A DNA stretch of 64,000 nt from Platycnemis pennipes (taxonomy: Eukaryota; Arthropoda; Insecta; Odonata; Platycnemididae), in assembly GCA_933228895.1 (NCBI GenBank), contig OW121853.1, forward strand, positions 124,888,133 to 124,952,132, written 5' to 3'. This document shows, piece by piece, positions 3,352 to 38,514 of this stretch (its first letter is position 1; every line of letters begins with the position of its first letter). Below the pieces are notes generated by a model. The model searched no databases. It was not told the DNA's origin and was given only the letters and a program-made list of their open reading frames with translations. Both the position numbers and the translations under genes were made by a program.

Positions 3352-3770
3352 TCTCTTTGAATCTCTTGTCACAGAAGTTGCTCCTCTAATCGTCGTGTCC
3401 GATCATTCATCATAATGTCTAGTGAGATTTAACATAGTATGAAATGGTACCAGATCTTTCTTAATAAATTACGTCAGGACTCACTACATGTCCTTTAACA
3501 ACAGATAGGACTGAAGGCGTACTTTGTGGAATTTTACGGTATTCATGGTAACGAATAAAATAAAACTTTTAGTCAATTCCACACTTTTTTAATAACCGAC
3601 CTAGGTTTCGAAAATTTTTTGTCATTCTCACCTGGATAATGACAATTTGTCGAAATCTAGGTCGATTACTAAATAAGTGTGGAAATGTTTAAAAGTTTTA
3701 TTTTATTCGTTACCATGAATAACTTTAATAACAGTTCATTTTGAACCAGGCATAGTATTGCATATTTGGT
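3352..3770 (+). repeat. Diverged direct repeat, unit B, split by insertion
   Basis: Repeats the order of landmarks of the unit at 2991-3165 but is interrupted at 3505-3722 by a foldback element. The AACAG of the target is duplicated on both sides of the insertion, which dates the insertion after the duplication. Confidence 0.6.
3505..3722 (-). mobile_element. Hammerhead foldback element, copy 2
   Basis: A 218-bp insertion flanked by a 12-bp TSD CTTTAAYAACAG with one mismatch (3493-3504 and 3723-3734). Leader tag GGCGTACTTTGTGGA at 3516-3530. The inverted arms run ATTCATGGTAACGAATAAA to its complement near 3700-3720. Both arms keep GAAAC/T, CTAG and GUC, but the CUGANGA boxes are damaged (read on minus: GUGAGAA; on plus: CUGGAUAA), so both ribozymes are probably inactive. 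The arm sequence is unrelated to copy 1 apart from the ribozyme layout. Confidence 0.75.
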
Positions 3771-5048
3771 CAGTGCAGAAAATTCAAGGAATTAATTCGA
3801 ATGATCATTAGCCGAGCAAAACGCCCTTTATTAGAAAGCTTTTTCTGGTCATCACTTGATATCATTCGTAAATTGCGCATGCGCATGCGTATGATCGTTC
3901 GCCGTGTAAAAAGGCCTTTAGGCATTGATTTAACGTGCAGTGAAGATGAAATAACGCTAACCTCATGATGAAAATCAAGCGTAGGGAATAATACGAAAAG
4001 GAAATTTAGTCGTTTAGAAGGGCTAATGGAATCTTATCCTGCGGTTGACTATTTTTTTTGGCAATAATTGACATGCTTCTGTGAAAATTCGGGAAGACCT
4101 TTTACTGTGAAAATGCTTTCCTTTGTCACGCAATTAGGGTGCCTCGTACCGACAGGTGCTCCATTGCCGTTCATAATTCCGGCATATGAAAATAGGGCCT
4201 ATGTCATAGGTTGGCACTCGAGTGCGTAAATTTAATATTTGCCACCTGGATTATTATTTTGTACCCATGCGTTTTTTAAGCCACAAAAGTACGGGTACAA
4301 ACGTATGGGTACGTGGCTGCCGTCGCTTATATCAATTAATTTAATTTCAAAATCAGCAATTGTTATTCCTCTATTCCGCAACAATATCGTCAGGTATACC
4401 TCACCAATATGGTCCTAGATAACTACGCATTTAGAATGTCTATCACAGGTTACTTTACTAGTTTGGATTAAATTGAAGGATATTAGAAAGTAGGTTCCCA
4501 GTAAATTCCCATCGTACTAAGAAATAAGATTTCCTTCCTCTTCCGATTTCCTTTGGTCTCAGAGGAATAGAGAAAGCCCAAGATTGAGGAAGTTCAATGT
4601 TACTCTTGGGAAAAATTTCCGTAGTTGAATCAAATACTGGAATGAACCATCGAATTCATTTTTGCGTTTTTTAATGCTGTCATCTCCCTTTATACTGTCA
4701 AAAAAAATCCCATTTTTTCCCTCCTTCCTCTCCCGCACTCTCACTGTCCCTCAACATCCATCCATTTGTTCGTCCTCACTTTCCTCTCTGCTGCTGTCAC
4801 ATTCAACGGCCATACACACTCTCCGCATGGCTGCCGGCATCAATTTCCATCACCACCTACGAATCGCATGTCTCTAAATTCTGTCTTACATACACGATTA
4901 CGGAATCACATATAACCTGTAATTAACCCAAACTCAACGTTTTCCCTAATGATTCGTTGTTACGATTATTAAGCTTATTTTCCATATACATTCAATTGTT
5001 TCTTTCCCGACGCATCTTATTGAAATGATGTGCTAGACTGCTACACTA
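3771..5048. other. Unassigned AT-rich sequence
   Basis: No gene, no recognised repeat. There is a palindromic GCGCATGCGCATGCG stretch near 3876-3890. The frames at 4559-4877 are C/T-rich low-complexity translations. Confidence 0.5.
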
Positions 5049-5275
5049 CAGGGTGGTTGTTTTCGAAACCGTCGGGATGAACTCGAATAGGTAACCAAAG
5101 AGTCGCATGATATAAATACGAGTGGTTCGCAAATTTGGTGTGATAAAACCGTTGATTACGACCTCATTCATTGCTAATATTTGTATTTTATCTCATATGG
5201 GGGCTCTATAGTCAAAACAGAAGCGAAACACTGAAGAGAAAACAATTAATTATTATATTGCAACGAGCAATTCGG
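5049..5275 (+). mobile_element. MITE Z, truncated copy
   Basis: Shares the left terminal block (TCGAAACCGTCGGGAT..GAATAGGTAACCAA..CGCAAATTTGGTGT) and the internal GGGGGCTCTATAGTC with the fuller copy at 15870-16190. The right inverted end is missing. Confidence 0.65.
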
Positions 5276-5369
5276 AAATTCAGCTTTAGGGAGGTCCACA
5301 AAATGGTCGCTATGTCATTGTTAGTGGTAGAGTCGAGCTCGGGGTGTATAGAAAAAGTGGAATTCAAAT

Positions 5370-5514
5370 GTTACTAATGTAATATATACCTAAATTATGT
5401 AGAGTTAGTATAATACATAGATTTATTATAATATATACATAAATTATGTAAATTATGTATTAATCTAATTATACCTAAATTACTAATGTAATATATACCT
5501 AAATTATGTAGAGT
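5370..5514. repeat. AT-rich local duplication
   Basis: A block of nearly 40 bp beginning TTACTAATGTAATATATACC occurs at about 5371-5408 and again at about 5478-5515, with a shorter partial copy between. Local slippage or duplication. Confidence 0.7.
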
Positions 5515-5515
5515 C

Positions 5516-6090
5516 ACATTTCTGAAATATAAATAATAAACAATTTAAAATAGACAATATAAATATCAAACGACTTTTTTAGTTTTCAATTACGTAATAT
5601 TAAAGTAGAGGGGGAAGATGGAAAGAATTTCTTGGAAGGGGTGGACAGTCAATTGAGTGAGGGGACCTATACTCTGGAAAATGGACAAACTTACGTAAAA
5701 ATATTTTCTTACATAAGATTTGTAAGTATTTGTAGTAGAGAGATTTAATATTCACATTCCAAAATTTAATTGAGAAGAAATCAACCATGCAGCTTTCATT
5801 ATAGTCATAATAAAAAATTAAAATTAAATATGGAAAAGAATACGAGATTTCATTGGAGGATAGAATTTTTACATGCCACAATTATCCCTTTTATTGACGA
5901 TGTATCAATCCAAAATATATTGGACAAGATTGAATTCAATTATGGTGTCTAGAATGAAATGTTGTCACATTTTAAAGCGTTTATTAAATAAGTTTATATT
6001 ATGAATATAATACAAACGGTGTTAAGTTTTAAATTTAGATGGCAGCTATCTAGTGTCAATGACGATTACATATTAAATATTTTGGTTAAT
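5516..6090. other. Unassigned AT-rich sequence
   Basis: No gene or recognised repeat; the overlapping short frames on both strands have no recognisable domain. Confidence 0.5.
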
Positions 6091-6094
6091 GGTA

Positions 6095-6580
6095 GTTTAG
6101 CGGGGCCGTCGTTCAGGTAGCTAGTGGGACGGAGGTCAGGACCAAGGGTCCACCCTCGGTCTCCTCGAAAATCGACCCTCGCCCATCCCGAGAGCTCAGC
6201 TTAGGTAGACCTTTCCCAGCGGGTGGGGTCCTCGGGGAAATTGACCACTAGACATGGTTTATCGAAGTTATAAACTTTGGAACGTATCAACAATTTATCT
6301 TCTTCGTTGTATCGTTCATTCCAAGACGTCGAAAAACGTTTTTTGATTGATGCTCTACGATGAAAGTTAAGGATTTTCCTATTTTTCGCGTAAAAAGCGG
6401 ATGGGATGTGGCAACGTTGCTACCTGAGAGGGCGAGTTTGGAAAAAGAGAGCGGGAAAAGACAGACCGTGCGAGTCTTATCCTGGGATCTCAATGTTCGA
6501 TGCTCCATGTCTCTGATCCATAGAGTGCCTCGCTCCTTTCTTTTTGTTGATTCTCATATTAATTACCTAAATTACTAGTC
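6095..6580 (+). repeat. Composite repeat X, copy 1
   Basis: Nearly identical, in inverted orientation, to 13328-13822. It starts with AATGGTAGTTTAGCGGGG, is GC-rich (CCTCGGTCTCCTCGAAAATC), and ends in a piece that on the minus strand reads as part of a LINE (LYGSETWS-like). It is followed immediately by LINE-A endonuclease sequence in the same sense, so it may be a 5' region of that element or a unit carried with it. Confidence 0.75.
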
Positions 6581-6584
6581 CAAA

Positions 6585-7015
6585 GCCAAAATATTCTTTA
6601 TATGTGTATATTATAGACCACCTGATAGCGACGGCAGTTCAGTTTCAGGCCTGGAGAGCAACAGCAGTAAACTACATTCGCGCGGAAACGATCGAAACAT
6701 CATAATACGTGGAGATTTCATACTTCCGTCCATAGACTGGGACACGAATTGGTTTATCACCGGAGTAAAAGACAAGGAGCTCTGCGAGTCACTATTGTGT
6801 ACCTTCACTACACACTCAATGCATCAATTGGTAACAGCACCCACCAGAGGAAATAATACCTTCTATTTATAAGCGGCAAATGTACCAGAACATGTTGTAA
6901 AAGTAGTAGCCGAGAAAGGCATTAGAGGCCATAAAGTAGTCACGGCTCAATTTTCTCTGAGAGCTAACAAACTCACGAGCCGAAAAGAACCATTTATTTG
7001 CTCGGTAAGGCTGAT
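6585..7015 (+). mobile_element. LINE-A endonuclease fragment, copy 1
   Basis: The frame reads FFICVYYRPPDSDG, then IIIRGDFILPSIDWD, then HQLVTAPTRGNNTF, the central and C-terminal motifs of the apurinic-type endonuclease of CR1/Jockey-group LINEs (the GDF..P.IDW block and the APTRGNN block). A stop follows NTFYL. The N-terminal endonuclease part is missing compared with the minus-strand copy at 12470-12740, so this copy carries an internal deletion of roughly 0.9 kb. Confidence 0.8.
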
Positions 7016-7139
7016 TATGGTGATATCTCTTAGCCGAAGGAGGCGTGTACATGGGAGTCAGCCAAATTCCATATACTTCTTCGTGCCTCACATTATTTTG
7101 GCGATAAAATGTTCATAATTGTCCTCCGGCATTATGGTT

Positions 7140-7440
7140 TGAAAGCTTCAATTCTTTGCTTTACTATTTTTCGATGTCCAATGTCTCTGACCCATAGAGT
7201 GACTTTCTCCATACGAATGTCTTGATGGAGTGCTTTCTTGTTGGTAACTGAAGGTTTTTGAGCCATGTAGTTGCCTCTTCTTCAGGAAAGGCTCCTTGGC
7301 CAGTGCTATTCTTCGCTTGATGTTAGTCATGCTTCTTCCATCGCAAGATATTAACTGTTGCGGAGATAGCTGAAGTTCTTGACTTGCTGTAATTTCACTC
7401 CTCATATTTTGATATAGCGTATTCCCTTCAGTCATACATG
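7140..7440 (-). mobile_element. RTE-like LINE C-terminal fragment
   Basis: A 95-codon open frame reads CDGRSMTNIKRRIALAKEPF, then LKKRQL, the block that follows the reverse transcriptase in RTE-like elements (usually DGR....I..RI..AK.AF..KK.L), and ends near a remnant of the LYGSETW motif. It is in the opposite sense to the flanking LINE-A pieces. Confidence 0.65.
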
Positions 7441-7479
7441 AAAATATGTTTTTTAAGTCGCCTTCAAATATCTTAGAGA

Positions 7480-8708
7480 GGGGATGGTTTCGTCAACTCA
7501 TAAAGAGGAATTAGGGAATCGTATAATGTATTTAGCGAACAAAGCAAAGGATTAGATACAGAGGATTCGTGGAGAGAATTTCTTGAGGTCACCCGTAAAG
7601 CAGTTAATAAATACATACCTAGTAAATTCATTAGTGATAATACAGAGCCAAGGTGGTATAACGCGGAGATTAGGAAATCACTAAAGCGACAAAGGGTATG
7701 TCACGCTAAGATGAAAAATGCAGGACGGGGTCTATCGGTAGAGGAAAAAAATAAGCTAGTTCAAAACTATAAAAAATCGAGAGCATTAGCAAGGAAATCA
7801 TGTCGGCAAGCGTTATCACATTTCAAGAGCAAGATGTTAGGAGAATATTTAGATAGCAATCCTAAAGCGTTTTGGTCATATGTGAGAGAGCTTCAGGGAA
7901 ATAGGTCCACAGTGCACACACTTAAAAACGATAAAGGAATTAGAGCCACCAGCAGTGTAGAAAAAGCCAATACTTTAAACACATTCTTCCAAAGCGTATT
8001 AAACTCATCGTCACACAACGCATTGGAACCACCGCCGAACACTTTCAGGGAGCAAATGCGCGAAATAAAAATTTCATGTCGCGGAATAGAGCAGCAGTTA
8101 AAAAACATTAGTAAAAAAAATCACGAGTTCCCGATCAAATTCCTTCCAGAGTATATAAAACATTAGCTTCTGAAATAGCTCCATATCTAGAAATAATATT
8201 CAATAAAACACTAAAGAACCACACAGTACCCAAGGATTGGAAAGTAGCTAACATTACACCTATTTTTAGAAACGGCGATAGGGAAGAACCTAGTAACTAC
8301 AGACCCATTTCACTCAAGTCAATCTCTTGTAAGATATTTGAGCACATTGTAGTCAGTTCGATCATGGGGCATTTGGAAAGTCAGGGATTACTCATAATAG
8401 AGCCAACATGGGTTCTGGAAAGTTTGATCTTGCGAGACACAATTAGCTCTATTTGTACACCATATATTAGTCTACGTCGAAAACAGTAATGAAGTTGATG
8501 CGATATTTTTAGATTTTAAAAACGCATTCGATAAAGTTCCTCATGATAAATTTATCTTGAAGTCAGAGAGTTTTGGTATAAATAAAGACGTATGTTGGGT
8601 AAAAGAATTCTTAAGTGGGCGAGAGCAGAGGGTTGTCATATATGGTATCATGTCGGACACAATCAAAGTCACATCGGGAGCCTCAAATTTCCAGTGGAAA
8701 TGCTCTTG
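7480..8708 (+). mobile_element. LINE-A linker and reverse transcriptase fragment
   Basis: From about 7500 the sequence encodes the endonuclease-RT linker (RWYNAEIRKSLKR near 7650; a 151-codon open frame at 7711-8166 with NPKAFWSYVRELQGN). RT fingers follow with a frame change: VPKDWKVANITPIF, GDREEPSNYRPISLKSI and FEHIV (about 8225-8350), then DFKNAFDKVPHDKF (about 8510-8550) and a decayed palm. Stops and shifts show it is dead. It is cut at 8708 by the tail of an opposite-strand LINE-A 3' end. Confidence 0.85.
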
Positions 8709-9035
8709 AATACAAATCTACATCTACATCTACAAAATACCCTGCAGGCCACCATAAAGGTGTGTGGCAGGAGGTGAACTCTCACCAAACATGCACTAAA
8801 TATCATGCATAAAAAAGATTACTGCTTGTATAGGTACTGTTCAAAACTACGCTGTTTATAAAAAAGATAAAAATAGCAAAGCATACATATAAAAACATGA
8901 TGTTAGTTGGGTTAGCTTTAAGTCCTTATACCAACATGCAGCTACCAATGTTATCCATTGCTACACTCGTATTGGATATATTTAGTTATTCATATCCCTA
9001 ATAGTACGAGGAAAAAAGGACATTTTGAATCTATC
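8709..9035 (-). mobile_element. LINE-A 3' end
   Basis: Antisense tail (TCTACATCTACATCTAC), 3' hairpin (ACCCTGCAGGCCACC..GGTGTGTGGCAGG), then a 3'UTR with ATCATGCATAAAAAAG and GTTAGTTGGGTTAGC, also seen at 35505 and 58130. Its 5' side is truncated at the last codons, where another LINE-A tail abuts it. Confidence 0.8.
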
Positions 9036-9042
9036 TACATCT

Positions 9043-9690
9043 ACATCTACATAATACCCTGCAAGCCACCACAAGGGTGTGTGGCAGGGGGTGATTTCTC
9101 ACCAAACATGCACTACATATCATGCATAAAAAAGGAATATTGAATCTGTCAGTTCGGCAATCAATTTCTCTAATTTTGTGATTATGGTCCACTCTACCAT
9201 AATAAGTTGGGGTCCGCCAAATATTTTTTACATCATCACTGAAAATATGGTCTTGGAATTTATTTAAGAGATAAAGTCTAAATTTTAATCTGCGATCTGA
9301 CAATGATTCCCAATTTAATTCATCTATTAGACTGGTTACGCTAATAAGGTTATCGTACCGTTCCTTTACAAATCTTGCCGATCTTCGCTGCACACGTTCA
9401 AGTTCGTTATTTAGACCGATTTCGTAGGGATCCCATACACTGGCAGCATATTCCAAATGAGGTCTTACAAGGGTAAAGTAGCTGATTTCTCGTACATGAT
9501 CGTCACATTTGCCCAGTACCTACTCGTTTGACGAATCCCAGTTTACGATTCGCTTGAACCATTATTTCACGAATGTGTTTACCCCAGGAAAGATCATTTG
9601 TCAGTCTTTTTCCAAGATAAAACAAACAACGCCCTACGATATGCTTTAATTGCTATGGAGTTTAGTTTATAATTTTGAATAATCTCTTTA
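9043..9690 (-). mobile_element. LINE-A 3' fragment with ORF remnant
   Basis: A 141-codon frame (9031-9456) reads MEYAASVWDPYEIGL, ELERVQRRSARFVKERYDN and REIDCRTDRFN. Upstream, frames contain LSWGKHIREI and ANRKLGFVKRV, typical of the CR1 C-terminal domain. The 3' hairpin and hexamer tail lie at 9043-9095. Its tail lands in the final codons of the copy at 8709-9035, so one LINE-A inserted into another. Confidence 0.85.
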
Positions 9691-10245
9691 CCTCGTCAAT
9701 GGATGGATTGGTTAGAGAACTTTTCAATCCAGATTGACTCTGCCTTTGTCATTTCAATGACTTCCACACTCTTGCTTACTATATACACTATCTAGGTTCT
9801 GCGTTTCCCCATTTTATTTTATTAGGTACGTATTTGTTAACTGCTGAGCGGGTATGCTACAAAACTTTACTATTTTGGCTTAAAATAACTTTCTTAACTT
9901 TATTAAACGACTTCAGTAACTCCTGTTCATGTCGTCGTATTTAAATCTACAAATGCTTCTCTCTATGCCAACCTTGCTTGACATGTGCTTGAGCTTGGAC
10001 GCCAAATCCGAATAGAACAAGTGACGCACTGAAGGGACTCCAGGACACAGCAGGAGACCGTTGGGGGAGGATTGGGGGAAAGTGAAAGTTCGTCGCGGGG
10101 CGACCACGCTATTGAACGTCTAAGCCGAAAAGAAGTGCATGGTTTCTTCGTACCTTTGTTCTCATCTCCAGCCCACGAGGGTCGCGTCCGGTGCTTTTAA
10201 CTCCCAATATTTGTTTGCTTGGTTTTAAACGGAAGCGGAAAGAGA
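9691..10245. other. Unassigned
   Basis: No recognisable gene or repeat. A short GC-richer segment near 10040-10110 carries only spurious frames. Confidence 0.4.
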
Positions 10246-10249
10246 TAGT

Positions 10250-10445
10250 TAGGGGAAATATTTTAGAGTAGTCTGTAGTGCATGATGCATGTATTACCCC
10301 TTAAATACTGTAGATACTAACAATCAAGTTGCATGAGACAATATAGTTGCTAGTTTGCATGTTAGTAGTGCATGCTTGGTGATCTTCACCCCCTGCCACA
10401 CACCCTCCCGGTGGCTTGCAGGGTATCGTGTAGATGTAGATGTAA
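10250..10445 (+). mobile_element. LINE-A 3'UTR
   Basis: Shares the landmarks AATATTTTAGAGTAGTCTGT, GCATGATGCATGTATTA and CAAGTTGCATGAGAC with the copy at 1540-1722, and ends with the hairpin and a GTAGATGTAGATGTA tail. Confidence 0.85.
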
Positions 10446-11355
10446 ACGTAAGGGTCATGCATATAGACTAGGAGATCGTAGCAGACTAGGAATAAAATCG
10501 CCAAGTCCAAAGGAACACCTATGGACAGGAGTGAGATTTCTCAAATGTACATGATGCCTTTAAATATCTCCTCAAGGGGGTGTGGCAGGGGGCATGCATT
10601 AATAAGGAAACACTACCCAAGCTAATAAATAAGTAATAATAATCAACAAGATATATCCGTTATGCAATGAAACTGGATGAATCTTTCAAACCCTAACTTT
10701 GCAAGGTCATTTATAACGTCCAGAAATAGGTTTTGAAGTAGTTATATCCCGATACGTTGATATTTTTTTATCCCATGTTCGAAAATATTTCTGCGTTGAA
10801 TTCAATTGGGATACCAGTTTTTTTCGGAGAGAGGGTTCCGATTTTTACTCATTACAATGCCTAAATGTTGTAATTAAAAATTCACCATTTAGAGGCTTAA
10901 ACTTAGAAGATTCTTATTCTGCTCGAAAAAAGTACTAAATTTCCGTATATTTGAGCATTTCTTAATTGAAGAAAAACTGTGAGCCTAAAATGTTGATTTT
11001 TAGGTCTGATTACTTCAGTAACCGAAGAGCATTGCTGTCGAAGTGAAGTCAGTTTCGAATGTGCTATTACAATACCCTCCCTCGTATGACTATTGAACGC
11101 GGGTGCCCGCGACGGAAAATCCTGCCTTATGTGATGAAAGCCACAATTTTGATTGTAACCTGCAAAGGGAAAGGGCGAAATAATGCAGAAGACACATTCT
11201 GCATGATTATTAACGGGAAGTTAGTGTTTTATGCGATGAAAACTATAATTAGAACTGGAATGCCTATTGAAACTTAGTGGAAAGTTGTCCAAGCCGGGTA
11301 AATACACCATACATAGGCATGTATTTTCCAATTATTAATATGTTATTGACGTCTT
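10446..11355. other. Unassigned AT-rich sequence
   Basis: A worn hairpin remnant GGGGGTGTGGCAGGGGGC lies at about 10574-10591. The rest shows no gene. The frame at 11059-11277 contains a weakly repeated GTGATGAAAGCCACAAT / GCGATGAAAACTATAAT pair but no domain. Confidence 0.45.
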
Positions 11356-11359
11356 AGGA

Positions 11360-11575
11360 GAAGTTATCTGTGTCAAACTTACGCATGAGGTTCAGCCTTT
11401 TCATCAACCTACTGCTAGATAGCGATTCCTATCCCAGTTCCTCTAATAACTTGGAGACAATGCTGAATTTATCTAAACATATTTTTACAAACCTACCTGA
11501 CTTTGTCTGTACGCGATCCCATATACTAGCAGCATACTCGGTGTGCGGTCCTACTAGTGAGAAATGACAGTGTTC
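11360..11575 (-). mobile_element. Diverged LINE-A-like C-terminal fragment
   Basis: The minus frame contains LVGPHTEYAASIWDR, GRFVKICLDKFS and LEELG followed by ESLSSRL, diverged from the main LINE-A by many replacements. Probably an older subfamily or a related CR1-like family. Confidence 0.7.
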
Positions 11576-11739
11576 TTTTACCATTTATCACTTTACAATG
11601 TAGTCTGAATGTATATATTAATTGATGAGTGTGTAATATCTAGGAAAGTAAACCAAAACCACCCACTATCTTGGCTAATGCTGACTTCTTGAAATGTATA
11701 AATTGAGTTGAGCAGTTCCTGTTTCATACCACCATAATA

Positions 11740-12015
11740 AGCCTTACTGGGGGCAATCACCTCTCCCCCCCCCCCCCCCCCCAGAATTTGCCCCGGGCCC
11801 TTGAGAAATGAGTCTTCATCAATAAAAAATAAATTTCACTTGTATCCAGCTTGCCTATTCCCTTCTGACGTATATTCTACCACCTTCATATGTACTTTTA
11901 GCGGAATTCTAATCTCTACTCCCTCCTATCCGCAAAAAAATGTGGGCCCTTTTCATAGGAGCCGGGCCCTTTTCAAGGTTGGCCCCTCCCAGCGAAAATA
12001 GTTCCGACGCCCCTG
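11740..12015. mobile_element. hAT-like MITE Y, copy 2
   Basis: Shares CCGGGCCCTTGAGAAATGA, TTCTACCACCTTCATA, CCTATCCGCAAAAAAA and GGGCCCTTTTC blocks with the copy at 17582-18578. Its right end (TTCCGACGCCCCTG, 12002-12015) is the complement of CAGGGGCGTCGGAA, a hAT-type terminus. It interrupts LINE-A endonuclease sequence. The left end is degraded around a C homopolymer (about 11765-11782); a diverged 8-bp duplication (TTACTGGG / ATACCGAG) is possible. Confidence 0.65.
11765..11782. repeat. Poly-C run
   Basis: An uninterrupted C run of about 17 bases inside MITE Y; possible assembly or slippage site. Confidence 0.9.
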
Positions 12016-12432
12016 ATACCGAGCAAATAAATGTTTCCTTTCGGCTCGTGAGATTGTTAGCTCTCAGAGAAAATTGAGCCGTGACTACTTTATGGCCTCT
12101 AATGCCTTTCTCGGCTACTACTTTTACAACATGTTCTGGTACATTTGCCGCTAATAAATAGAAGGTATTATTTCCTCTGGTGGGTGCTGTTACCAATTGA
12201 TGCATTGAGTGTGTAGTGAAGGTACACAATAGTGACTCGCAGAGCTCCTTGTCTTTTACTCCGGTGATAAACCAATTCGTGTCCCAGTCTATGGACGGAA
12301 GTATGAAATCTCCACATATTATGATGTTTCGATCGTTTCCGCGCGAATGTAGTTTACTGCTGTTGCTCTCCAGGCCTGAAACTGAACTGCCGTCGCTATC
12401 AGGCGGTCTATAATATACACATATAAAGAATC
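12016..12432 (-). mobile_element. LINE-A endonuclease fragment, copy 2
   Basis: Minus-strand counterpart of 6585-7015. It encodes the same YYRPPDSD, HQLVTAPTRGNNTF and NVPEHVVKVVAEKGIRGHKV segments at high identity, with an uninterrupted frame through HQLVTAPTRGNNTFYLLAAN where copy 1 has a stop. Confidence 0.8.
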
Positions 12433-12469
12433 TTTTGGCTTTAGGCTGTCGAAGTGAACACCATACGCT

Positions 12470-12740: not shown

Positions 12741-12985
12741 CGGTGCCTTTAATGATATGGTAGCATTAAACTACTTTATTTTTATACTACGGCAGTTTAG
12801 TATCACCAAATATATTATATAACTATTTAGCAACTTCTCTGGTCGTTGATAGTAACCTCCATTAGCCATCTTAGGAAAACTAATTGTCAATAATTTGTCA
12901 TCACTGAAAAATTACTTCTGAAATTCCTCATCTTTCCCGTGACTCATGTGAAAGCCTCCATCAACTAGCCATTTCACAACGTGGA
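12741..12985. other. Unassigned
   Basis: AT-rich spacer between LINE pieces; no feature recognised. Confidence 0.4.
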
Positions 12986-12989
12986 ATGG

Positions 12990-15869: not shown

Positions 15870-16190
15870 GGGGGATGCGTTCGAAACCATCGGGATTATC
15901 CAGAATAGGTAACTAAGGAGTCACGTGGTATAAACACGAATGCTTCACAAATTTGGTGTTTAAACCACTGCCTACAAACTCATTTATTGTTTACGCATAT
16001 GTTTTATCTTTACCTTTGTGTCTGGGGGCTCTATAGTCGAGATTGATGAGAAAAACTCAAGTGAAAACAATTAATGATGTCGTAACGAGCGATTCAGACA
16101 CACTAAATTTTCGAACCATTCGTGTTTATAGCACGTGACTTCTTGGTTACCTATTCGAGATAATACCTAACACAGCCTCCCTTGAATGAA
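15870..16190. mobile_element. MITE Z, full copy with inverted termini
   Basis: The left end (GAATAGGTAACTAAGGAGTC..CACGAATGCTTC) and the right end, reverse-complemented (GAATAGGTAACCAAGAAGTC..CACGAATGGTTC), form about 85-bp terminal inverted repeats around an AT-rich centre containing GGGGGCTCTATAGTCGAG. No coding capacity. A truncated copy lies at 5049-5275. Confidence 0.75.
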
Positions 16191-17676: not shown

Positions 17677-18366
17677 TCTACATCTACATCTACACGATAC
17701 CCTGCAAGCCACCGCGAGGGTGTGTGGCAGGGGGTGAAGGTCACCAAGCATTCACTACTAGCATGCAAGCAAGCAACTAAAGGGTCTCATGCAACTAGAT
17801 TGTTAGTATCTATGGTATTTGAGGGGTTAATACATGCATCATGCACTACAGAATACTCTAAAATATTTCCCCTACCTATCCCTTTCCTATGCTGCCTATT
17901 CTGTTCTCTTATAGTACGGGGGAAAAATGCCATTTTGAATCTATCTGTACGACAATCTATCTCTCTAATCTTATTTATCTGGTCGAATCTAGCATAATAC
18001 GCTGGTGTTTTCAATATGTGCCTAACATCTTCAGTAAAGCTATCCGATTGAAATTTCTGCAATAGATTAAATCTGAACTTCAATCTACGCTCTGATAATG
18101 ATTCCCACCCTAATTCTTGTATTAATTCTGATACACTACTCAACCTATCGTAACACCTTTTGACGAACCTAGCTGCTCTACGCTGCACACTGTCTAGTTC
18201 TCTCATCAAACCTAATTCATTAGGATCCCATACACTGGCTGCATACTCAAGGTGGGGCCTAACTAGTGAAAAGTAGCATCGCTCTTTTGTCTTCTCATCA
18301 CATTTCCCAAGTACTCTTTTTATAAATCCTAGCTTTCTCTTCGCTCGGCCGCATATTTCCCTTATG
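17677..18366 (-). mobile_element. LINE-A 3' fragment, youngest copy
   Basis: A 690-bp 5'-truncated insertion into MITE Y with a 7-bp TSD TGTTTCA (17670-17676 and 18367-18373). The antisense hexamer tail and 3' hairpin lie at 17677-17735. The coding frame is intact from the truncation point to the stop, making this the best-preserved LINE-A C-terminus in the window. Confidence 0.9.
17787..18366 (-). CDS. LINE-A reverse-transcriptase C-terminal domain (partial, frame open)
   Basis: About 193 codons of the C-terminal part of a CR1-like ORF2 protein. In order: KHIREICGRAKRKLGFIKRV, LVRPHLEYAASVWDPNELGL, RRAARFVKRCYDRLSSVSEL, IQELGWESLSERRLKFRFN, REIDCRTDRFKMAFFPRTIR, then a short tail to a stop. 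This is the thumb and post-RT region that follows the palm in CR1-like LINEs; the endonuclease and catalytic RT motifs are absent because of 5' truncation, so it has no activity. The apparent initiator Met comes from flanking MITE Y sequence and is not a real start. The uninterrupted frame, unlike the other copies, suggests a recent insertion. Confidence 0.85.
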
Positions 18367-18586
18367 TGTTTCAAGATTGCTTATTCCTATCGGACACATA
18401 TTCTCCCACCTTCATAATGCTCTTCTAGCTAAATTCTAGTCTTTACCCACTACTATCCGCAAAAAAAACTGTGGGGCCTCCTCTTAGGCACCGGGCCCTT
18501 CTCTTAGGAGCAGGGGCCTTTTCTTAGGAGCCTGGCCTTTTTCAAGGCCCCCTAAAGGAAATAGCTCCGACTCCCTTGTCTTCATC

Positions 18587-19763: not shown

Positions 19764-19912
19764 AAATGGAAAATAAAAGAATGAAACTGTGTAAGGTTCA
19801 CTTTATATTTGAATAAGCACGACCCGGGTTTCATAACATAGTTACATCTTCAGGTAAACCTGAAGGTAATATAAAGTGAACCTTACACAGTTTCATTCTT
19901 TTATTTTCCACT
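19764..19912 (-). mobile_element. Hammerhead foldback element, copy 3
   Basis: The inverted arms TGGAAAATAAAAGAATGAAA..AAGGTTCACTTTATAT and their complement close on a short loop. The right arm lacks the GAAA half, so the foldback is asymmetric. ATGGAAA occurs on both sides (19757-19763, 19913-19919) as a possible 7-bp TSD. The GGCGT..GTGGA leader tag of the other copies was not found. Inserted within LINE-B. Confidence 0.65.
19815..19857 (-). ncRNA. Hammerhead-like ribozyme motif, copy 3
   Basis: Minus strand: CUGAAGA (19853-19847), one extra U, stem II GUAAC/GUUAU, GAAAC (19832-19828), palindromic CCGG, GUC cleavage triplet (19823-19821), then GUGC. Core and stem III are intact; stem I is only about three pairs, with one a G-U wobble. 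Confidence 0.6.
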
Positions 19913-24998: not shown

Positions 24999-24999
24999 G

Positions 25000-31025: not shown

Positions 31026-31029
31026 AAGT

Positions 31030-31880
31030 ATGATTGGGGAGACTTAGTTCAGATATCAAAATTCGACGCAGCAGTAAAGGTCCTGTGGCTAAATGAGACT
31101 TCTGTCATTGACGAAGTTCCTCTCTAATGATCGAAACGGCAGATGAGAAGACATTAACCTAGCTAAACAAAACCATCTTCGACATATACTTAATGGAAGT
31201 GAAACCAGCGGAATTCGAGAAGATTATCATTAATCCTATTCCCAAATAGAGAAGGACTAAAAGGGTGAAAGGTTTAGGACAATAAGCCTGAGGACCGCGA
31301 CGCATGCTTCGAAGATATTAACAAGGATAATCTACAGAAGAATAAAAGGTGAAGTATAAGAGTTCCTGAGTGTTAATCACGCTCTGCTACCAAACACCTA
31401 TGAAAGCTACTTTTACTCTAACCAATGTAAGAGAGAACTAAACCCTGAAGAGGATATATAATCTTAGAGCATGGCTCCCCAATATTGTTATTGTTTTTTT
31501 GTTGTTATTTGCTTTTTAATATCTATTGTATTTTTATTGGTGAAAATAATCGATTTTTGAATTGAATTGAGTTCCTGGAGGAGAACCAATTTGCATCAGG
31601 GTACGCAAAAGCACAAGAGGGGCTCGTAGAGAAGAGAATGAAGAAGAAGAACCCACCTTTATTACTTTTGTGGATTTGGAGAAGGTATTTGACCGCGTGG
31701 GTTGGAATGCAATGCGTGAGATTCTAAAAGGTGTTGGAGAAACTTATGAAGAACTGAAGAATTATCTACGGGTTGCATAGATACCAGGTGGGTGTAATTA
31801 AGTCTGGACCGTCTGGACACAGCAGTGAAGGAGCAAGAATTAACTCCTCAATGCCACCTTGCGTACCCAGAAAGCTTCCT
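31030..31880 (+). mobile_element. LINE-B RT fragment, old and interrupted
   Basis: Parallels 20060-20640 of the longer copy: TTCGACGCAGCAGTAAAGG, AACCATCTTCGACATATACT, ATCATTAATCCTATTCCCAA, AACAAGGATAATCTACAGAA, then after an insertion TTTGTGGATTTGGAGAAGG (FVDLEKVFDRVGWNAM) and AAGTCTGGACC. Many stops and indels. Confidence 0.8.
31369..31568 (+). mobile_element. Retroposon-like insertion in LINE-B
   Basis: A 200-bp insertion bounded by an exact 9-bp TSD GAGTTCCTG (31360-31368, 31569-31577). It ends in GATTTTTGAATTGAATTGA, a short tandem A/T tail before the TSD, which suggests the 3' end of a LINE or SINE of unknown family in plus sense. Confidence 0.75.
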
Positions 31881-31883
31881 GTA

Positions 31884-31922
31884 CTGCTAATTTTATTAAT
31901 TTTTTAGGACGGGAAAAGACAG
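31884..31922. repeat. 39-bp inverted repeat, right partner
   Basis: Exact reverse complement of 26506-26544. It sits at the 3' edge of the decayed LINE-B copy. Confidence 0.8.
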
Positions 31923-33505
31923 CTTGTTTCGTGATAGTAAGCTTTAATCTACATCATATATAATACTCTTGATTTTTTCATCCTTTTATTTTTTGGTAAT
32001 ATTTTAGTCAGTAGTTGTGATTAAATGTTTTTAAATTTCTGTCAGTGATGGACTTTTAACACTCGTGAAAAGACTGTGTTTCAAATGAGATTCAGGTAAT
32101 TGTTTTATATACTATTATATTAACCATGTCATTCAAGTAATCGGAATTTTGGGAAAATCAATTTCAGCCTAGCTTATTAAATTGCGCAAGCATAGCTGGG
32201 AAATATTTGAGCCTCTCCCCGAATGATGCTTGAATATTTTTGATTTGTTCAACGATCTCGGGTAGTTCTTAACCACCTCACCACTAACTTGATGATTTAA
32301 ATTGCAGCGATTCTTCATCATTATTCATTTCTACAGTGAAATATTTCCACAGCGTTAGACCCAAGACTATTAACTATGATAATTAAACGTCTCGCATTGA
32401 ATCCGCGGGACGGTTGAATGTACGCTCTCTCTGAGAACCCTCTGAAGTTACCAAAGCTATCTTAAGTACAACTGGAAATATTTACTCACCAGTGCTTCAT
32501 CCTGATGTTCAGGGCATTTCAACGTTGGATTTGGATGCAATTTTTCACCCATTCCTATAACAAAACAAGATTTATTACGACACTTGTATAAAACACTGAT
32601 TACAACATGCAAAATTTATTCCTGTTGTTTGAGCGAACCCGAGAATGTCATGAAACGTTAAGCAATAATGTTAAAATAATACTAAAAATGCGATGGCACC
32701 ATTACATATACACCATTTTTACTATATTTTAACCACATTTTTCGATTGATGGTTAAATGCAATTTTTACGATACCTTACAAGACAAAAAATGTCGTCTCA
32801 TTAAAGCGCTGAAAACATTATGCAAGGATTGAAGACGCCTAGATAGGTTAGCTGACTGAAGTATTATATGCGATATAAAAGGAATCGGGTTCCAATGCCA
32901 GTCGGAGAAAATTAATTGGTCTCTGTGAAATTCGCGAATTGGTATGAATATCGCGAGGAGACTCTGGTTTTGTCATGGTCTTTGCACAGTTCCTTGAATT
33001 AAAAAAAAAATTTCATTTCAAGCTGTAATGCGGATGCACCTACTCTATCCTCGTCTATATATCCTACTTTCTATACTCTATCCTTCGCTTGGATTATCCA
33101 GGGAACGACCGCAAATACACTTCGGAATCTCGACTCAATCCCGTAGAAACATATCATATTTTTGCTTGGGGCATACCATATTTATTTTGTTTTTCTATTA
33201 AAACACATTAATTCTGAGAACGGGGTATGATTTAATCGGCCATTTACAAAGTTACTTATTGCTACCTTCTGAGAATTTTATCTGTTATTTTATCTGTTAT
33301 CGAGCAATTTTTGTACTCAGTTTTTGATGAATATTGAATTTTTCCCTTTCCCGTTTTCCCATGGCATTTCACTCAAGTGTCAAGTTTTAATGTGCACCGA
33401 TGAGGAACTAGCAGATTTCACGAATGGACACGTTTATAACTTTGCAATATGTCACCAATTTCCCTATTACTCCTCATATCTAATCATTTGCAATCTTTTT
33501 CGCAG
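31923..33505. other. Unassigned; intron or upstream flank of GPA2
   Basis: AT-rich, without an exon I can recognise. If the missing GPA2 exon lies upstream in this window, this stretch is intron. The final bases form the polypyrimidine tract and acceptor TTTTTCGCAG at 33496-33505. Confidence 0.6.
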
Positions 33506-33681
33506 GTCACACAAGGAAGATAAGCATCCCAGACTGCATTGAGTTCCCGATCACGACGAACGCATGCCGCGGCTTTTGCGAATCTTGGTCCGTGCCTTCG
33601 GCCATCGAAACACTGCGCTACAACGCCAACCAAGCGATAACATCGGTGGGACAGTGCTGCAACATTATGGACACAGAGGAT
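33506..33681 (+). CDS. Glycoprotein hormone alpha-2 (GPA2), central exon
   Basis: Encodes the central part of the thyrostimulin alpha subunit, a secreted cystine-knot hormone that pairs with GPB5 and signals through an LGR1-type receptor. The frame reads HTRKISIPDCIEFPI, TTNACRGFCESWSVPS, then NQAITSVGQCCNIMDTED. The CRGFC and GQCCN motifs are diagnostic; five of the ten conserved cysteines lie here. The exon starts two bases into a glycine codon after acceptor TTTTTCGCAG (preceding intron phase 1) and ends at GAT before donor GTGAGT (phase 0). 176 bp, no stop or indel, so under constraint. The exon with the signal peptide and the first cysteine (expected before GHTR) was not found in the window. 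Confidence 0.96.
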
Positions 33682-33779
33682 GTGAGTATTTAGGATTGCT
33701 GATCGGTATTGTTACTATTTTTTGGTGAATGAATTGGCATATTATTATTAGTTCTGTCCTGGTGAAGGTAAGGCTAATG

Positions 33780-34215
33780 CATATTTAATTCTTCTGACCC
33801 CCAAAATTTCATCCGATATCCCTCTTCAGCCCCTCATACCTCCTGACTCCAATCATTCTATCCAAGCTACCCGTCCTTCTCCTCCCGCTTCCTCCCAATT
33901 TTTCCCCTCAATCACTTCTTTCAAAACACCATCCCCTTTTATTGCTTCCTCCATGCACAAATTCTGCCTTATAATTTCATCTATCAAATTTCTTTCCTCT
34001 CATACCAATTATAGCTCTTCATCGTTCGCCTTCCTTTCGGCCCACCTTACTTTTTCCATCCTTCTCCACACCCATATCTCAAAAGCCCCAAGTCTATTTT
34101 CATCTTCTTTTCGCAAAGCCCACGTTTCCGCCCCAGATAGTGCAACGCTCCATTTTAAACTTTTCCCTAGTCTTTTCTTAACTTCCCCTCTCAAGGCCCT
34201 TGTCATTAGCTCACA
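33780..34215 (-). mobile_element. RTE-like LINE C-terminal fragment (third subfamily)
   Basis: The minus frame reads TRALRGEVKKRLGKSLKWSV, ALSGAETWALRKEDENRLGA and FEIWVWRRMEKVRWAERKAN, the post-RT block (LYGAETW....ENRL.AFE.W.WRRM.K..W) of endonuclease-RT elements. It differs from LINE-B in sequence. Decayed after KANDEEL. Lies in the GPA2 intron. Confidence 0.75.
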
Positions 34216-34523
34216 CTACGAATAAAATTAGCCAATGCGATTTTCCTTCTGACATCAATGCTGCTATACCCTTTCCTCCAACACACTACCTAGATGGCTA
34301 AATTGCTATACCTGCTCTAGCTTCTGACTTCCCATGTTTATAGTTAAACTGGCCTATTTTGTTCTTGAAAATTGCATTATTTTCGTTTTATTCTGATTTA
34401 TATGTGAATGAACTCAAAAGTCTTTAAATAATACCAAACTGGGGAAAATACCCTGGAAACACCGATAATACTGGTGTGACGATTAAACATAGAACTAAAA
34501 AGGAACACCACCCAGAAATTATG

Positions 34524-34560
34524 GACTATTTCGGTGGCCACAGCCACCTTCTTCAGCGAG
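34524..34560 (-). ncRNA. Hammerhead-like motif in GPA2 intron
   Basis: Minus strand: CUGAAGA (34556-34550), one extra A, a perfect 6-bp stem II GGUGGC/GCCACC, GAAA (34532-34529), UA, GUC (34526-34524). Core and stem II are intact; stem III is minimal and I find no convincing stem I. It is antisense to GPA2. Confidence 0.45.
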
Positions 34561-34708
34561 GTGAGAGATGACAAGGAAGGGCAGGAGAAGGTGGGACTGA
34601 AGAGGGCATGGGGGGCTAGTACGTCACATTTAACCCGGGAAATTAGGAAGCATTTAAGATAAAATACATGTGAGTTTCATGGCATGGAGTTTAAGGGCTG
34701 AAATGGAC

Positions 34709-34757
34709 GGGGTGGAGAGAGAGAGAGAGGGAGGGAGAGAGAGAAAGAGAAAATAGA
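34709..34757. repeat. GA-rich microsatellite
   Basis: An interrupted GA/GGGA repeat in the GPA2 intron. Confidence 0.9.
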
Positions 34758-35504
34758 CACCTTGAAGCAGTTACTGAAGAACGAATCATGGAATGAAGCT
34801 AGTTATGCGACGGGGATAGAGGTGTGGGAAGAAGATGCGTTGCTAGAAGAACGGTAGTTATCGATACGGACATCGATGGGCGTAATAAATTGGCCATTGC
34901 ATAAAGCGTGACTAAAATGATATAGAAAGTGGAAAATGATGTTAATAGACACACATGTGAGAGATGGAAAGTGAGCGAGAGAGTTGTAGGAGTGGTGTGG
35001 GTGGTGAAGTGAAAAAAGGACATGTTTTACACCTCGTGTGATTGCATGGGGTGGGAAGGGCTTTAATTGTAGGATGGGATTTGAGGAGAGGCACAAATGA
35101 AGATCAGTCAGGGAATACCTTTACTGCGGTTGGGCTAATATCAGATTGAGGAAAAGTTCTTTGAGCATCGTTTTCAGGGACCGTGCGCCAGGAAAGTAAC
35201 TGATGCAGATGTAGAGCATTTTGCGACGATTGAATGGAGGAGGTTTAGGGTTGGAGGAAAAATTGAGGATCTTTTTATTTTTAAGAGATTTTGAGTTGCC
35301 ACGGCGATAGAAGAGAGGTGGGTAAGGTTGAAAGGTATTCTTGTAGGGAGTCAGAGTTATTACAGGTGAGATGACCCCAAATGGAAAGACAGGGAATTTG
35401 GTGTGCGAGGTTATTGCAGCTGCGCAAATAACGTAGTGTATCAGTTTGTTTGATGTGGACGGTGGAGTAACGTGAGAATTGAGGCTGCATGCATTGATTG
35501 CAAT

Positions 35505-35720
35505 CTACATCTACATCCAAATAATACCCTGCAAGCCACCTCAAAGGTGTGTAGCAGGGGGTGAATTCTCACCAAACATGCACTACATATCATGCATTTA
35601 AAAGGATCAGTATTAATATATTAGCCTAAACTGGAATATTTAAAAAGATAATAATACCAAAATATGCATGCAGAAATGTGCTGTTAGTTGGGTTACCGCA
35701 ATGGCATGCGGTAAAATTAT
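35505..35720 (-). mobile_element. LINE-A 3' end
   Basis: Antisense tail (ATCTACATCTACATCC), hairpin ACCCTGCAAGCCACC..GGTGTGTAGCAGGG, then the UTR with ATATCATGCATTTAAAAGG and CTGTTAGTTGGGTTACC, as in 8709-9035 and 58130-58425. Confidence 0.85.
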
Positions 35721-36226
35721 TCGAACCGAAGAATGGATAACTTAAATAGGATAACTATATAGTGGATTGTGTGCTTTTGAAATAAAGGCGTCAGTAACAC
35801 TTAGTCTCAAACAATTTCGTTACTTATTTGAGAAAAACATCTGTCTTGTTGAGTTGTTTTGCTTCCACTATTTCAATAAAGTAAATAGGATTCTTAAGTA
35901 TTCAAACGTTGAAAATACTTGCTTTCTTATGCTGCTACTTTTACAAATTCACATCACTTAATTACTTTTACTACTCCAAATTTTATTCATAAGCTACTTT
36001 AAAATCATGCCATACATCACTTATGTTTTCTAATTCATCAATTTCATACGATTATGTGAGGCAAAAATGCTCCAATTGCCGTAATAGTTTTTAATGTGAG
36101 TCTTATAATCACGGGGCAAGGAAAACCCTTGACTCGTGATTCCCTATTTACCTCGTTTGAGTAACTAATAGACCTCATATTGATCGGCACATATGTGTAC
36201 TGATGCGTTTTGTTCTCTGCCTCCAG

Positions 36227-36319
36227 ATCATGGTGAAGGTGTTGTGCCTGGACGGACCGCGGGAGCTCACCTTCAAGTCGGCCAAGAGCTGTTCGTGCTA
36301 CCACTGCAAGAAGGACTGA
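36227..36319 (+). CDS. Glycoprotein hormone alpha-2 (GPA2), terminal exon
   Basis: Encodes the last 30 residues and the stop: MVKVLCLDGPRELTFKSAKS then CSCYHCKKD. The CSCYHC end is the conserved C-terminal motif of invertebrate GPA2 and supplies four more cysteines, completing nine of ten with the exon at 33506-33681. Acceptor CTGCCTCCAG at 36217-36226, phase 0, matching the upstream donor. The stop TGA is at 36317-36319. I see no NXS/T glycosylation site in the two exons. Confidence 0.96.
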   Translation: MMVKVLCLDGPRELTFKSAKSCSCYHCKKD

Positions 36320-36540
36320 AGCGGAGGGCGAATTAGAATAGGAGGTGGGAAGGAGGGGGAGGAGGACAGAGGAGAGGACGGGAGAAGAGGAGCCTTTTGG
36401 GAGAAGAGAGCCGCACTGCAAACAGCCGCGCGAGTTTCGCGGGAAGCGCCGAAATGGACATATCTCTGCTACAAACATTGCAATTTTACAAACACACAGC
36501 ACGGACACACGCGAAAATAAAACGATACTCTCGTTGATTA
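36320..36540 (+). other. GPA2 3'UTR with candidate poly(A) signal
   Basis: GA-rich sequence downstream of the stop; AATAAA at 36516-36521, about 200 bp after the stop, is the first canonical signal. UTR end not otherwise defined. Confidence 0.6.
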
Positions 36541-38293
36541 TCAACGTCCCCCTCGACACACAATAACCGTAGGATCGCCAACTTTATTTCTGGCTTCCTC
36601 TGCCTCCTCCGCCTCCTATTGTCAACCTCGTCACCAGAAGAAAACCATGCACATATATCCACTGACTTGACCCACTGGACACGATGGAAACAGTAATACA
36701 GCGAGTGCAGCCACATTCGTCTCTGCCACATGGAACAGACGCAGTTAACGATTATTTGCTGATCAATGATCACCAAACTCCCCCGAAACATAGCATCGAC
36801 CTCCTCAGTACGTCTCTGTCTCATTCCCATCCTTCGAGGAAACCATGTTCTTTGGTAGGCTTAGCTCGCATAGACAACCAATCCTAAATACTCCCGTTCC
36901 CTGATCCTCATCCTCTTGAAAGACATTCTTTTGAAATGATAATGTGGCGTCTTATACATATTATATATATGATGAAAATGTATACATCCATAAATACATG
37001 CATATATTTTTAGGAAATAATTATTCAATACATGTCCCTGGTCAAAAAAAGTTTTAATAATATGACAATTCCGAAATTTCAAATCTAAATTATTGAAATA
37101 AAAAAGCATTTTTGCGATTGCATATTGGTTTCACTCATCTAACGCCTATCGGCGGCTCACTTAGTAAGAGGCGATCACTATCCGCTCTGTAAAAGACTTT
37201 CAGAGAAATTAAGTAGCCAAATTTGAACATTAATTAAGGATGTAGGGATTTACGAAGGAAAGGTAACCATATGAGTCATCTCGTGCTTATTCACAGACAT
37301 ATATTCGTTGTAGGGTGGCGCCTGTTGGGAGTGCGCGGTAAGATTTTCCACATAAGTTTGAAGTGGTGTCGTCCATTTATTTTGTGTCATTTGGGTTGAC
37401 ATGAGCTCTCTCTCTCTCTTCCACTACTTTTACTACTATTTTCAAGCATGTAAATCGTTGGAAATGTTGGAAATAAACTTTCAAAGCTGCAAAGAAATTG
37501 TTTCAATGTCTTTGATTTTTAATCTGCATTGCTCAACTGAAAAATGTGTACCGAAAATGTGGGTAAACCTTATAAAGTTCTTGAAGACAAATTTTAACGA
37601 TTTTACATAACACATGGATACTAATGCAGTTGCTGTTTACAATTCTGATGAGTTTTTAAAATAATTTTTATAGTTATGATCTCAAAATAACAACTTTCAC
37701 GTTTGGAACATAATTCGTAGAAGAAGCTTGGTAAAAGAACAGATACATAGGTTGGAAAGTAATATTTGATGGAGCTTTGCAGAATAAAGAGGAGCAAAAG
37801 GTAAGTTTGTCCATTACCTTGTTTGAAAAAGGAAAAAGAGCGGCATGGGTGTATTTGATATTCTGCTAATTCATTAAGAATAATTCCTTTCACAAACGCG
37901 AGAGATGTGATGATGTCACTAAATCGACTCGTTGATTGAATTCTAAATCACCTTGATTGAATTCCGTTTCCACCTCTCGAGTGCCATGATGTGACATGAT
38001 TGACCACAATGGTGAGGGAGAAGATTCACCTAAAATGGATGCACTTATAAATGACTTCGGGAGTCACCCACGTATTATGCAACGCTGATTTTCCACGTTT
38101 TTAACACCCTTCCCCAGATAACGGTACATAACTTTCTCATAGGCCCATTAATTAAGTTACGCCGCTAATGAATCCTTTCTTTGTAAAGGATATAATAATA
38201 TTTTTAATAAGTTCTTAGTTTCTGAATATTGCCACTTTTATTCACTAATTATTACTTGCACCTATCATCATTACTATTGCGCCGTAGATGGGA
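36541..38293. other. Unassigned downstream flank
   Basis: No gene or recognised repeat; AT-rich with TATATATA and CTCTCTCT stretches. A GPB5 partner gene, sometimes adjacent to GPA2 in animals, was looked for on both strands and not seen. Confidence 0.45.
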
Positions 38294-38305
38294 AAGAAAA
38301 ATGAA

Positions 38306-38514
38306 TTGGATACTGTTCGGCGTAACTTGGTGGATATTCGTGATGAATTAACAATTAATAACTTTGTATATTTCCACAAAAATTATTAAACCACGACCGG
38401 TTACACCCACTTAGGGCATCATCTTATTGTACCTGATGATACCCGAAGTGGGTGAACCCGATCGTGGTTTAATACATTTTTGTGGAAATATACAAAGTTG
38501 TTACTTGTTAATTC
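38306..38514 (+). mobile_element. Hammerhead foldback element, copy 4
   Basis: A 209-bp insertion with an exact 12-bp TSD AAGAAAAATGAA (38294-38305, 38515-38526). Leader tag GGCGTAACTTGGTGGA at 38319-38334, then inverted arms GAATTAACAATTAATAACTT and complement around a TTATTGTAC loop. Same plan as the copies at 1093 and 3505 but with different arms. Confidence 0.8.
38428..38470 (+). ncRNA. Hammerhead-like motif, copy 4
   Basis: CUGAUGA (38433-38439), one extra U, stem II ACCC/GGGU, GAAC in place of GAAA (38454-38457), then CCGAUC before GUGG. The A15.1 change and weak stem I suggest loss of activity. The minus-strand arm has AAGAUGA and GUAAC, also damaged. Confidence 0.45.

Follow-up and report, generated by a model that had tools for sequence, protein, structure and literature searches.

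The window, which is the whole 64,000-nt stretch analysed here, comes from Platycnemis pennipes (GCA_933228895.1, contig OW121853.1, positions 124,888,133–124,952,132, forward strand) and holds three foldbacks of 238, 218 and 209 bp. The first-pass annotation had noticed that these foldbacks share a short tag, GGCGT-N(4–7)-GTGGA, beside the left arm, as well as 12-bp target-site duplications (TSDs). Both features are real: the tags lie at 1109, 3516 and 38319, and two of the TSDs are exact, with the third matching at 11 of 12 positions. The window would be expected to contain a mean of 0.16 tags by chance, and three were reached in none of 100 shuffles. The arms are unlike between copies, and the tag is common to all. 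The features are as follows, with the limits of the copies set by the TSDs; PLE stands for Penelope-like element.

Copy 1, 1093–1330, minus strand (leader sense next to the tag): read as a PLE leader foldback, with sister copies L083 and L098
Copy 1 left TSD, 1081–1092, unstranded: TACAGATTAAAT, exact 12 nt; right copy at 1331–1342
Copy 1 tail, 1093–1134, minus strand: M S H F H Y V T P D T V N N, start codon 1134–1132; limits placed by analogy with PLE 3′ ends
Copy 1 tag, 1109–1124, minus strand: codes F-H-Y-V-T-P plus flanking bases
Copy 1 arms: 1145–1226 and 1238–1319
Copy 1 hammerhead-like core CTGATGA..GAAA, 1202–1226, left arm, minus strand: mirrored at 1238–1262 on the plus strand; a motif match, unscored by Rfam
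Copy 2, 3505–3722, minus strand: read as a PLE leader foldback, with arms and tail of the L035/L060/L063 kind
Copy 2 left TSD, 3493–3504, unstranded: CTTTAACAACAG/CTTTAATAACAG, 11/12 match; right copy at 3723–3734
Copy 2 tail, 3505–3546, minus strand: M N T V K F H K V, after which the frame is lost; start codon 3546–3544
Copy 2 tag, 3516–3530, minus strand: 15-nt form
Copy 2 arms: 3533–3617 and 3644–3728
Fourth foldback, 19767–19910, minus strand: no tag and no clear TSD; hammerhead-like core at 19829–19853, minus strand
Copy 3, 38306–38514, minus strand: read as a PLE leader foldback, with a leader of the L094 kind
Copy 3 left TSD, 38294–38305, unstranded: AAGAAAAATGAA, exact 12 bp; right copy at 38515–38526
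Copy 3 tag, 38319–38334, minus strand: I-H-Q-V-T-P; the upstream start codon is gone
Copy 3 arms, two nested pairs: 38344–38383 with 38476–38515, and 38378–38423 with 38435–38480

None of the three tagged copies contains an ORF, and a tblastn search with PLE protein found no match in the window. Copy 2 has an ORF-bearing relative, L118 (MNITNFDKVTPSVLSD); no ORF-bearing copy tied to the family of copy 1 or copy 3 was found. The fourth foldback is likely a PLE leader pair that lacks the tail. A ribozyme plan common to the three copies, as first described, stands in part: the CTGANGA..GAAA core is intact in both arms of copy 1, and is present in some relatives, but it is missing from copies 2 and 3. 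Rfam reports no hammerhead in the window, whether at the gathering threshold or with E values relaxed to 10. By eye, the inner ends of the arms in L059, L064, L090, L096 and copy 3 lie close to the hammerhead core's 5′ edge. Because the inner arms of L093 and L097 extend beyond that edge, a common RNA 5′ end at this point is only hinted at.

On the minus strand, the tag reads TTC CAC NNN GTN ACG CC, which translates as Phe-His-x-Val-Thr-Pro, the opening codons of a PLE gene. The ORF of L104 opens MMIQFHKVTPEGISSIRNAS (MMIQFHKVTPEG) and carries the exact tag. We took 63 unselected genomic tags, namely, the first ones along contig C1 rather than a random genome-wide draw, and 30 of the 33 with a 6-nt gap code for an FHx[VIL]TP-like peptide under a loose rule that lets in L047 and two stop-containing copies (L039 and L067). 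Foldback arms adjoin 13 of these 30. Among PLE proteins, 9 of the 23 examined (taken from 120 among 880 matches) start with F-[HR]-[KQ]-[VI]-T, for example, MNSKFHKVTPET and MDFRKVTPDS, and of 20 regions lying upstream of PLE matches, 8 contain an FHx[VI]TP-like ORF start. Among ORF families located without using the tag, the exact tag is present in L104 only; the L107-type, L116, L118 and L122 differ.

Judged from these sequences, the tag corresponds to the opening codons of the PLE ORF, which the foldbacks carry in reverse. It had been taken for an undescribed signal; it is instead the PLE ORF start, lying within the known PLE tail. The tag likely marks the place where the PLE enzyme starts copying RNA into DNA, and a structural or priming role is possible. 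A reading of the tag as a Pol III A-box was set aside, since the coding reading accounts for the fixed gap.

The tag could also be a mobilisation signal recognised in trans, in which case one PLE would mobilise a non-autonomous, SINE-like class with several subfamilies, and the peptide resemblance would be secondary. This would suit a tag common to families with unlike arms; a GTGGA motif, which 18 of 27 leaders carry 34–55 nt upstream; and the codon choice, as five ORF starts and the inverted copy in L121, located without the tag, use TTC for Phe followed by a codon with C in third position. However, the gap is fixed at 6 nt, the peptide matches PLE proteins, at least one foldback family (L017 and L084) shares its leader with the ORF-bearing L069, L082 and L104, and the exact tag is missing from some ORF families. 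We regard recognition in trans as quite unlikely. The proposal of one mobilising machinery survives in the sense that one kind, the PLE, accounts for all three copies; that a single machinery serves several subfamilies is not demonstrated, because families with their own ORFs exist. The arms differ between copies because the leaders belong to different PLE families.

The tag is enriched beside foldbacks: among the 63 unselected tags, arms adjoin 13 of the 33 with a 6-nt gap versus 0 of the 30 with other gaps. A separate count of foldbacks and TSDs gave 27 foldbacks from 56 tags, a ratio that is no measure of enrichment; it covers 53 genome tags (33 from the unselected run and 20 picked by tag form) and the window copies, with copy 2 entered under its 15-nt tag. 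Arms starting at less than 15 nt were left out; L098, L043, L087 and L092 fall outside the arm-start limits, and L022, L056 and L058 were set aside as not being clear PLE foldbacks. A matching duplication (score of at least 9) flanks 23 of the 27 foldbacks versus 7 of 702 swapped flanks, and the TSDs are thus not coincidental. Exact TSDs are 9–15 bp long with a mode of 12 (10/22), and their composition is 76% AT versus 60% across the window. L098 has the same foldback plan and a matching duplication.

In all 27 counted foldbacks, the tail is confined to one end. The 3′ ends of PLEs, 20 of which were selected via protein match without the tag as a criterion, fall into two kinds: 13 are tailless, stopping at most ~10 nt from the start codon, and 7 continue 44 nt through the tag, ending at nearly one point. 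This 44-nt extension is the previously described PLE "tail". Within one PLE family, copies stop near the start codon or 44 nt into the ORF. Long inverted arms, together with the type I-like hammerhead core of copy 1, might suggest MITE-like DNA foldback transposons or metazoan retrozymes. Yet ~40 nt at one end have no counterpart at the other, exact TSD lengths are spread, and the arms match PLE leaders beside reverse transcriptase (RT)/GIY-YIG ORFs, so that we hold this origin to be very improbable. A foldback DNA transposon, with arms reaching both termini and a single TSD length, was rejected on the unpaired ~40 nt and the 9–15-bp TSDs.

A source element with the tag at its ends had been proposed as something to look for, and Penelope-like RT/GIY-YIG copies of this kind were found. 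L069, a same-tag relative of the window copies, has an ORF with RVT_1 (E 4.7e-10) and GIY-YIG (E 4.3e-6) domains and the tag at its inverted end, and its limits carry a 13-nt direct repeat. Further PLE hallmarks are inverted head-to-head leaders (pLTRs), found in the window copies, L069 and L082; the optional ORF-codon tail at one end, in 7/20 PLE 3′ ends and at one end in the 27 foldbacks; and a short, variable TSD in an AT-rich target.

The tail is at one end only and PLE ends lie at the start codon or 44 nt in. The foldbacks are, with a probability of roughly 0.78, ORF-less PLE insertions, that is, two head-to-head leaders between 12-bp TSDs with the tag as reversed ORF codons, likely produced from two internal RT start sites, one per broken DNA end. 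The same PLE identity could go with a different origin of the head-to-head form, by snap-back, in which the cDNA 3′ end folds and copies itself, or by self-priming on an antisense template, rather than from two cDNAs on two DNA ends. Snap-back is the favoured model for rotifer PLEs in the available part of PMC3846280, and the arms of L082 would agree with it, being identical through 2583 bp (0 mismatches) and separated by a loop of 12 nt, with 2 nt of overlap at the turn. Against it, the arms of L069 are unequal (~85 nt vs. ~2.3 kb), as are, by eye, those of several small copies (L042, L087 and L088), and a self-copied cDNA begun in the tail should leave two tails, whereas the 27 counted foldbacks, from which arms starting at less than 15 nt are absent, have one. 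We consider such an origin rather doubtful.

For ORF-less insertion from two start sites, we suggest the following series of events. A staggered GIY-YIG cut would give rise to the TSD. On one DNA end, reverse transcription would begin at the distal site, leaving the tail; on the other end, it would begin at the start-codon site. Both cDNAs would extend toward the RNA 5′ end and then be joined. A template ending in the leader would yield a ~200-bp foldback; where more of the template is present, the product would be a longer PLE carrying an inverted leader. The GTGGA of the 5′ UTR may pair with the tag's TCCAC half, giving a predicted stem around the start codon. In the 27 leaders used for this comparison, hand-picked at 1–2 per look-alike family, GTGGA/TCCAC covariation in the flanks was no better than in shuffled sets (33 vs. 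34.9, P 0.69), and covariation on the inner side gave no support (26 vs. 22.0, P 0.18).

It is tempting, if tentative and at somewhat less than even odds, to combine these proposals. The tag would have a dual use, as start codons and as part of a GTGGA stem that places the two RT start sites; a fixed one-tail rule would assign the distal site to one DNA end and the start-codon site to the other; and run-off at the 5′ end of ordinary PLE mRNA would generate ORF-less leader foldbacks, probably thousands in the genome by extrapolation from 13/63 tags, as a class of by-products in which PLE integration can be read at single-base resolution.

An odd common tag thereby gives insight into Penelope insertion. 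The two discrete start sites demonstrated in vitro with a single lizard element have counterparts among the genomic ends of a second genome, and the one-tail asymmetry is a point that any model of PLE integration must account for. There is also a warning for annotation, in that a hammerhead foldback flanked by ~12-bp duplications can be an inserted PLE leader and need not belong to a transposon class of its own.

In the available part of PMC3846280, the Penelope of the rotifer Adineta vaga has inverted pLTRs, one of which may bear a 31-bp tail of ORF codons, and 8–10-bp TSDs. The P. pennipes elements resemble it in their inverted head-to-head leaders, optional one-sided ORF-codon tail, short TSDs and GIY-YIG domain. 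They differ in that inserts are often ORF-less (~200 bp) and far commoner, with a tail of ~40–44 nt vs. ~31 bp and TSDs of mostly ~12 bp vs. 8–10. For the Poseidon PLE of Anolis carolinensis, the accessible portion of PMC11167929 describes reverse transcription from two internal sites bounding the tail, with both strands cut and extended. The P. pennipes elements have AT-rich targets too, and would share the two internal start sites bounding a tail and the cutting and extension of both strands. Poseidon has a hammerhead near the ORF start, to which the hammerhead-like core of copy 1 and some relatives may correspond. In Poseidon, however, the start is 111–118 nt inside the ORF, whose beginning overlaps the hammerhead, whereas in P. 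pennipes the far end lies 44 nt inside and the hammerhead region precedes the ORF start; moreover, the ends here are read from genomic copies, and those of Poseidon from a reaction. In that portion, each of the two sites served on either strand in vitro, which does not account for the one-tail rule. Metazoan retrozymes, as far as the available section of PMC7229834 describes them, are likewise small repeats that lack an ORF and have TSDs of more than 4 bp; they carry type I hammerheads, which the type I-like core of copy 1 resembles. Retrozymes, however, are 150–450-bp repeats tied to small circular RNAs, whereas the foldbacks described here are one-tailed inverted pairs of PLE leaders.

The foldback tag, GGCGT-N(4-7)-GTGGA, is the start of the reading frame of a Penelope-like element (PLE), read on the opposite strand. 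The three window foldbacks reported in the first-pass annotation, with their tags and duplications, are all present, and their tails, the ORF-start stretch at one end, translate much like the ORF starts of regions of the same genome (L-numbers) and of fetched PLE proteins (P-numbers).

Translated starts
Copy 1, 1093-1330, foldback tail: MSHFHYVTPD
Copy 2, 3505-3722, foldback tail: MNTVKFHKV, frame lost after
Copy 3, 38306-38514, foldback tail: NIHQVTPNS
L107, L108, L114, ORF start: MEKFHKVTAE
L111, ORF start: MEKFHNVTAE
L116, ORF start: MSKFHKVNLP
L118, ORF start: MNITNFDKVTPSVLSD
L122, ORF start: MRFHQVKPE
P0009, PLE protein: MNSKFHKVTPET
P0019, PLE protein: MDFRKVTPDT
P0016, PLE protein: MSKFHKVTVKT

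Tag-like ORF starts occur in 8/20 regions examined in this genome, and that of L104, MMIQFHKVTPEGISSIRNAS, includes the exact tag. Of the 120 PLE proteins listed, 23 were fetched, some of which are truncated; nine of the 23 have an F-[HR]-[KQ]-[VI]-T start, including P0037 and P0038, named as butterflies; it is absent from nine (P0010, P0012, P0047, P0068, P0071, P0092, P0100, P0104, and P0113).

The 1.79-Gb genome (88 contigs) holds 15,202 matches to the tag pattern and 9,505 to the backwards pattern. The first 60 regions of the match list contain 63 tag occurrences. An FHx[VIL]TP-like peptide is encoded opposite 30 of the 33 gap-6 tags, by a loose rule that admits two sequences with a stop and, in L047, what is probably a chance match. 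Foldback arms adjoin 13 of these 30. The expected genome-wide association was thus recovered in this sample for gap-6 tags (13/33), with none among the 30 tags of gap 4, 5, or 7; the association is set by gap length. A reading frame accounts for the 6-nt gap being fixed, and variation is greatest across one entire codon and, within the Val/Ile codon, at the third base.

There may be a further constraint at the RNA level. Phe codon TTC followed by a codon ending in C, seen in five ORF starts and the L121 inverted copy, all found without the tag, hints at it among families that are related to each other. In 18 of 27 hand-picked leaders (the PLE stretch forming the foldback arms), GTGGA lies 34-55 nt ahead of TCCAC, the tag half read on the opposite strand; the best rival among 20 same-letter words reached five leaders. 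RNA folding pairs the two in 13/18, closing a loop that contains the start-codon region. Since flank pairing in these leaders is no better than among shuffled copies, a candidate bound motif is as likely as the predicted stem.

At least 68 PLE matches were found by protein search (65 scored of 25,365 candidates). A PLE with an RT/GIY-YIG ORF and the tag at its end, anticipated in the first-pass annotation, was reached via the tag alone: L069, bounded by a 13-nt direct repeat, carries the tag on its inverted left end and a tail-less leader on its right. As predicted, the tag and the RT ORF of L071 lie on opposite strands. The ends were compared in 20 of 24 L069-family protein-search hits reaching the ORF end (L069, both L082 arms, and one further hit were left out), with about 500 bp beyond inspected; as copies were chosen by protein match, selection is independent of the tag. 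All 20 have the leader. Thirteen end at most about 10 nt from the start codon, and seven extend past the tag, with endpoints at GGTATTTCTTC or no more than 4 nt beyond it, 44-48 nt after the first base of the start codon. The stretch between these two ends is the PLE tail.

The foldbacks end similarly. In 27 of them, counted with 15-35 nt admitted, the arm lacking the tail stops 19-31 nt past the start of the tag, near the start codon. Duplications scoring 9 or more flank 23/27, versus 7/702 swapped flanks, and in these 23, 12-20 nt separate the tailed end from the tag that follows it (15-17 nt in 15/23). Exact duplication lengths peak at 12 (10/22). Two-tailed foldbacks number 0/27 in a count that excludes them by construction; among the 30 coding gap-6 tags, a closer arm start occurs only in L056, an unclear case. 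Of all the observations, this one-tail pattern has the weakest explanation.

The likely mechanism is that GIY-YIG makes a staggered cut, as the target-site duplication (TSD) suggests, and that reverse transcription begins at internal RNA sites: the tail site for one DNA end, the start codon for the other. Both cDNAs would extend toward the RNA 5′ end and then join; a template ending in the leader would yield an ORF-less foldback. L082 (815-5991) is a scaled-up version of the ~200-bp foldback: two head-to-head PLEs with 2583-bp arms, 0 mismatches, and a 12-nt loop, limited by a 12-nt direct repeat, TCCCATAAAATA, with tag and tail at one end. Its head-to-head shape is equally compatible with a snap-back origin; the unequal arms of L069, about 85 nt versus about 2.3 kb, favour two cDNAs.

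Other repeats in the window
19767-19910: a fourth foldback, which lacks the tag; its 43-nt arms pair along their full length and it has a hammerhead-like core on the minus strand (19829-19853); probably a tail-less pair of PLE leaders
15892-16167: inverted repeat with a 140-nt middle (CAGAATAGGTAACTAAGGAGTCACGTG..) between arms of 68 nt; it differs from the PLE foldbacks and may be a TIR element
9031-9519, 17787-18380, 62929-63384 (minus): one recurring kind of ORF fragment (..VRPHLEYAASVWDP.. and relatives), possibly from a non-LTR retrotransposon

By eye, the ribozyme region of the L017, L060, L069, and L090 families reads CTTGANAATGAC or near it, not CTGANGA, and is perhaps a decayed or variant hammerhead. 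The turn of the L089 foldback contains several GGTACCTGAAG repeats, as would result from repeated copying of the RNA 5′ end.

A literature search with little subscription coverage returned no title or abstract describing leader-only PLE foldbacks or this tag. Inverted pLTR, tail, hammerhead, and TSD are each already known. A lizard PLE has a tail-like stretch bounded by two RT start sites within the RNA, with cutting and extension of both DNA strands (PMC11167929); in rotifers the tail consists of ORF codons, and one of the inverted pLTRs optionally carries it (PMC3846280).
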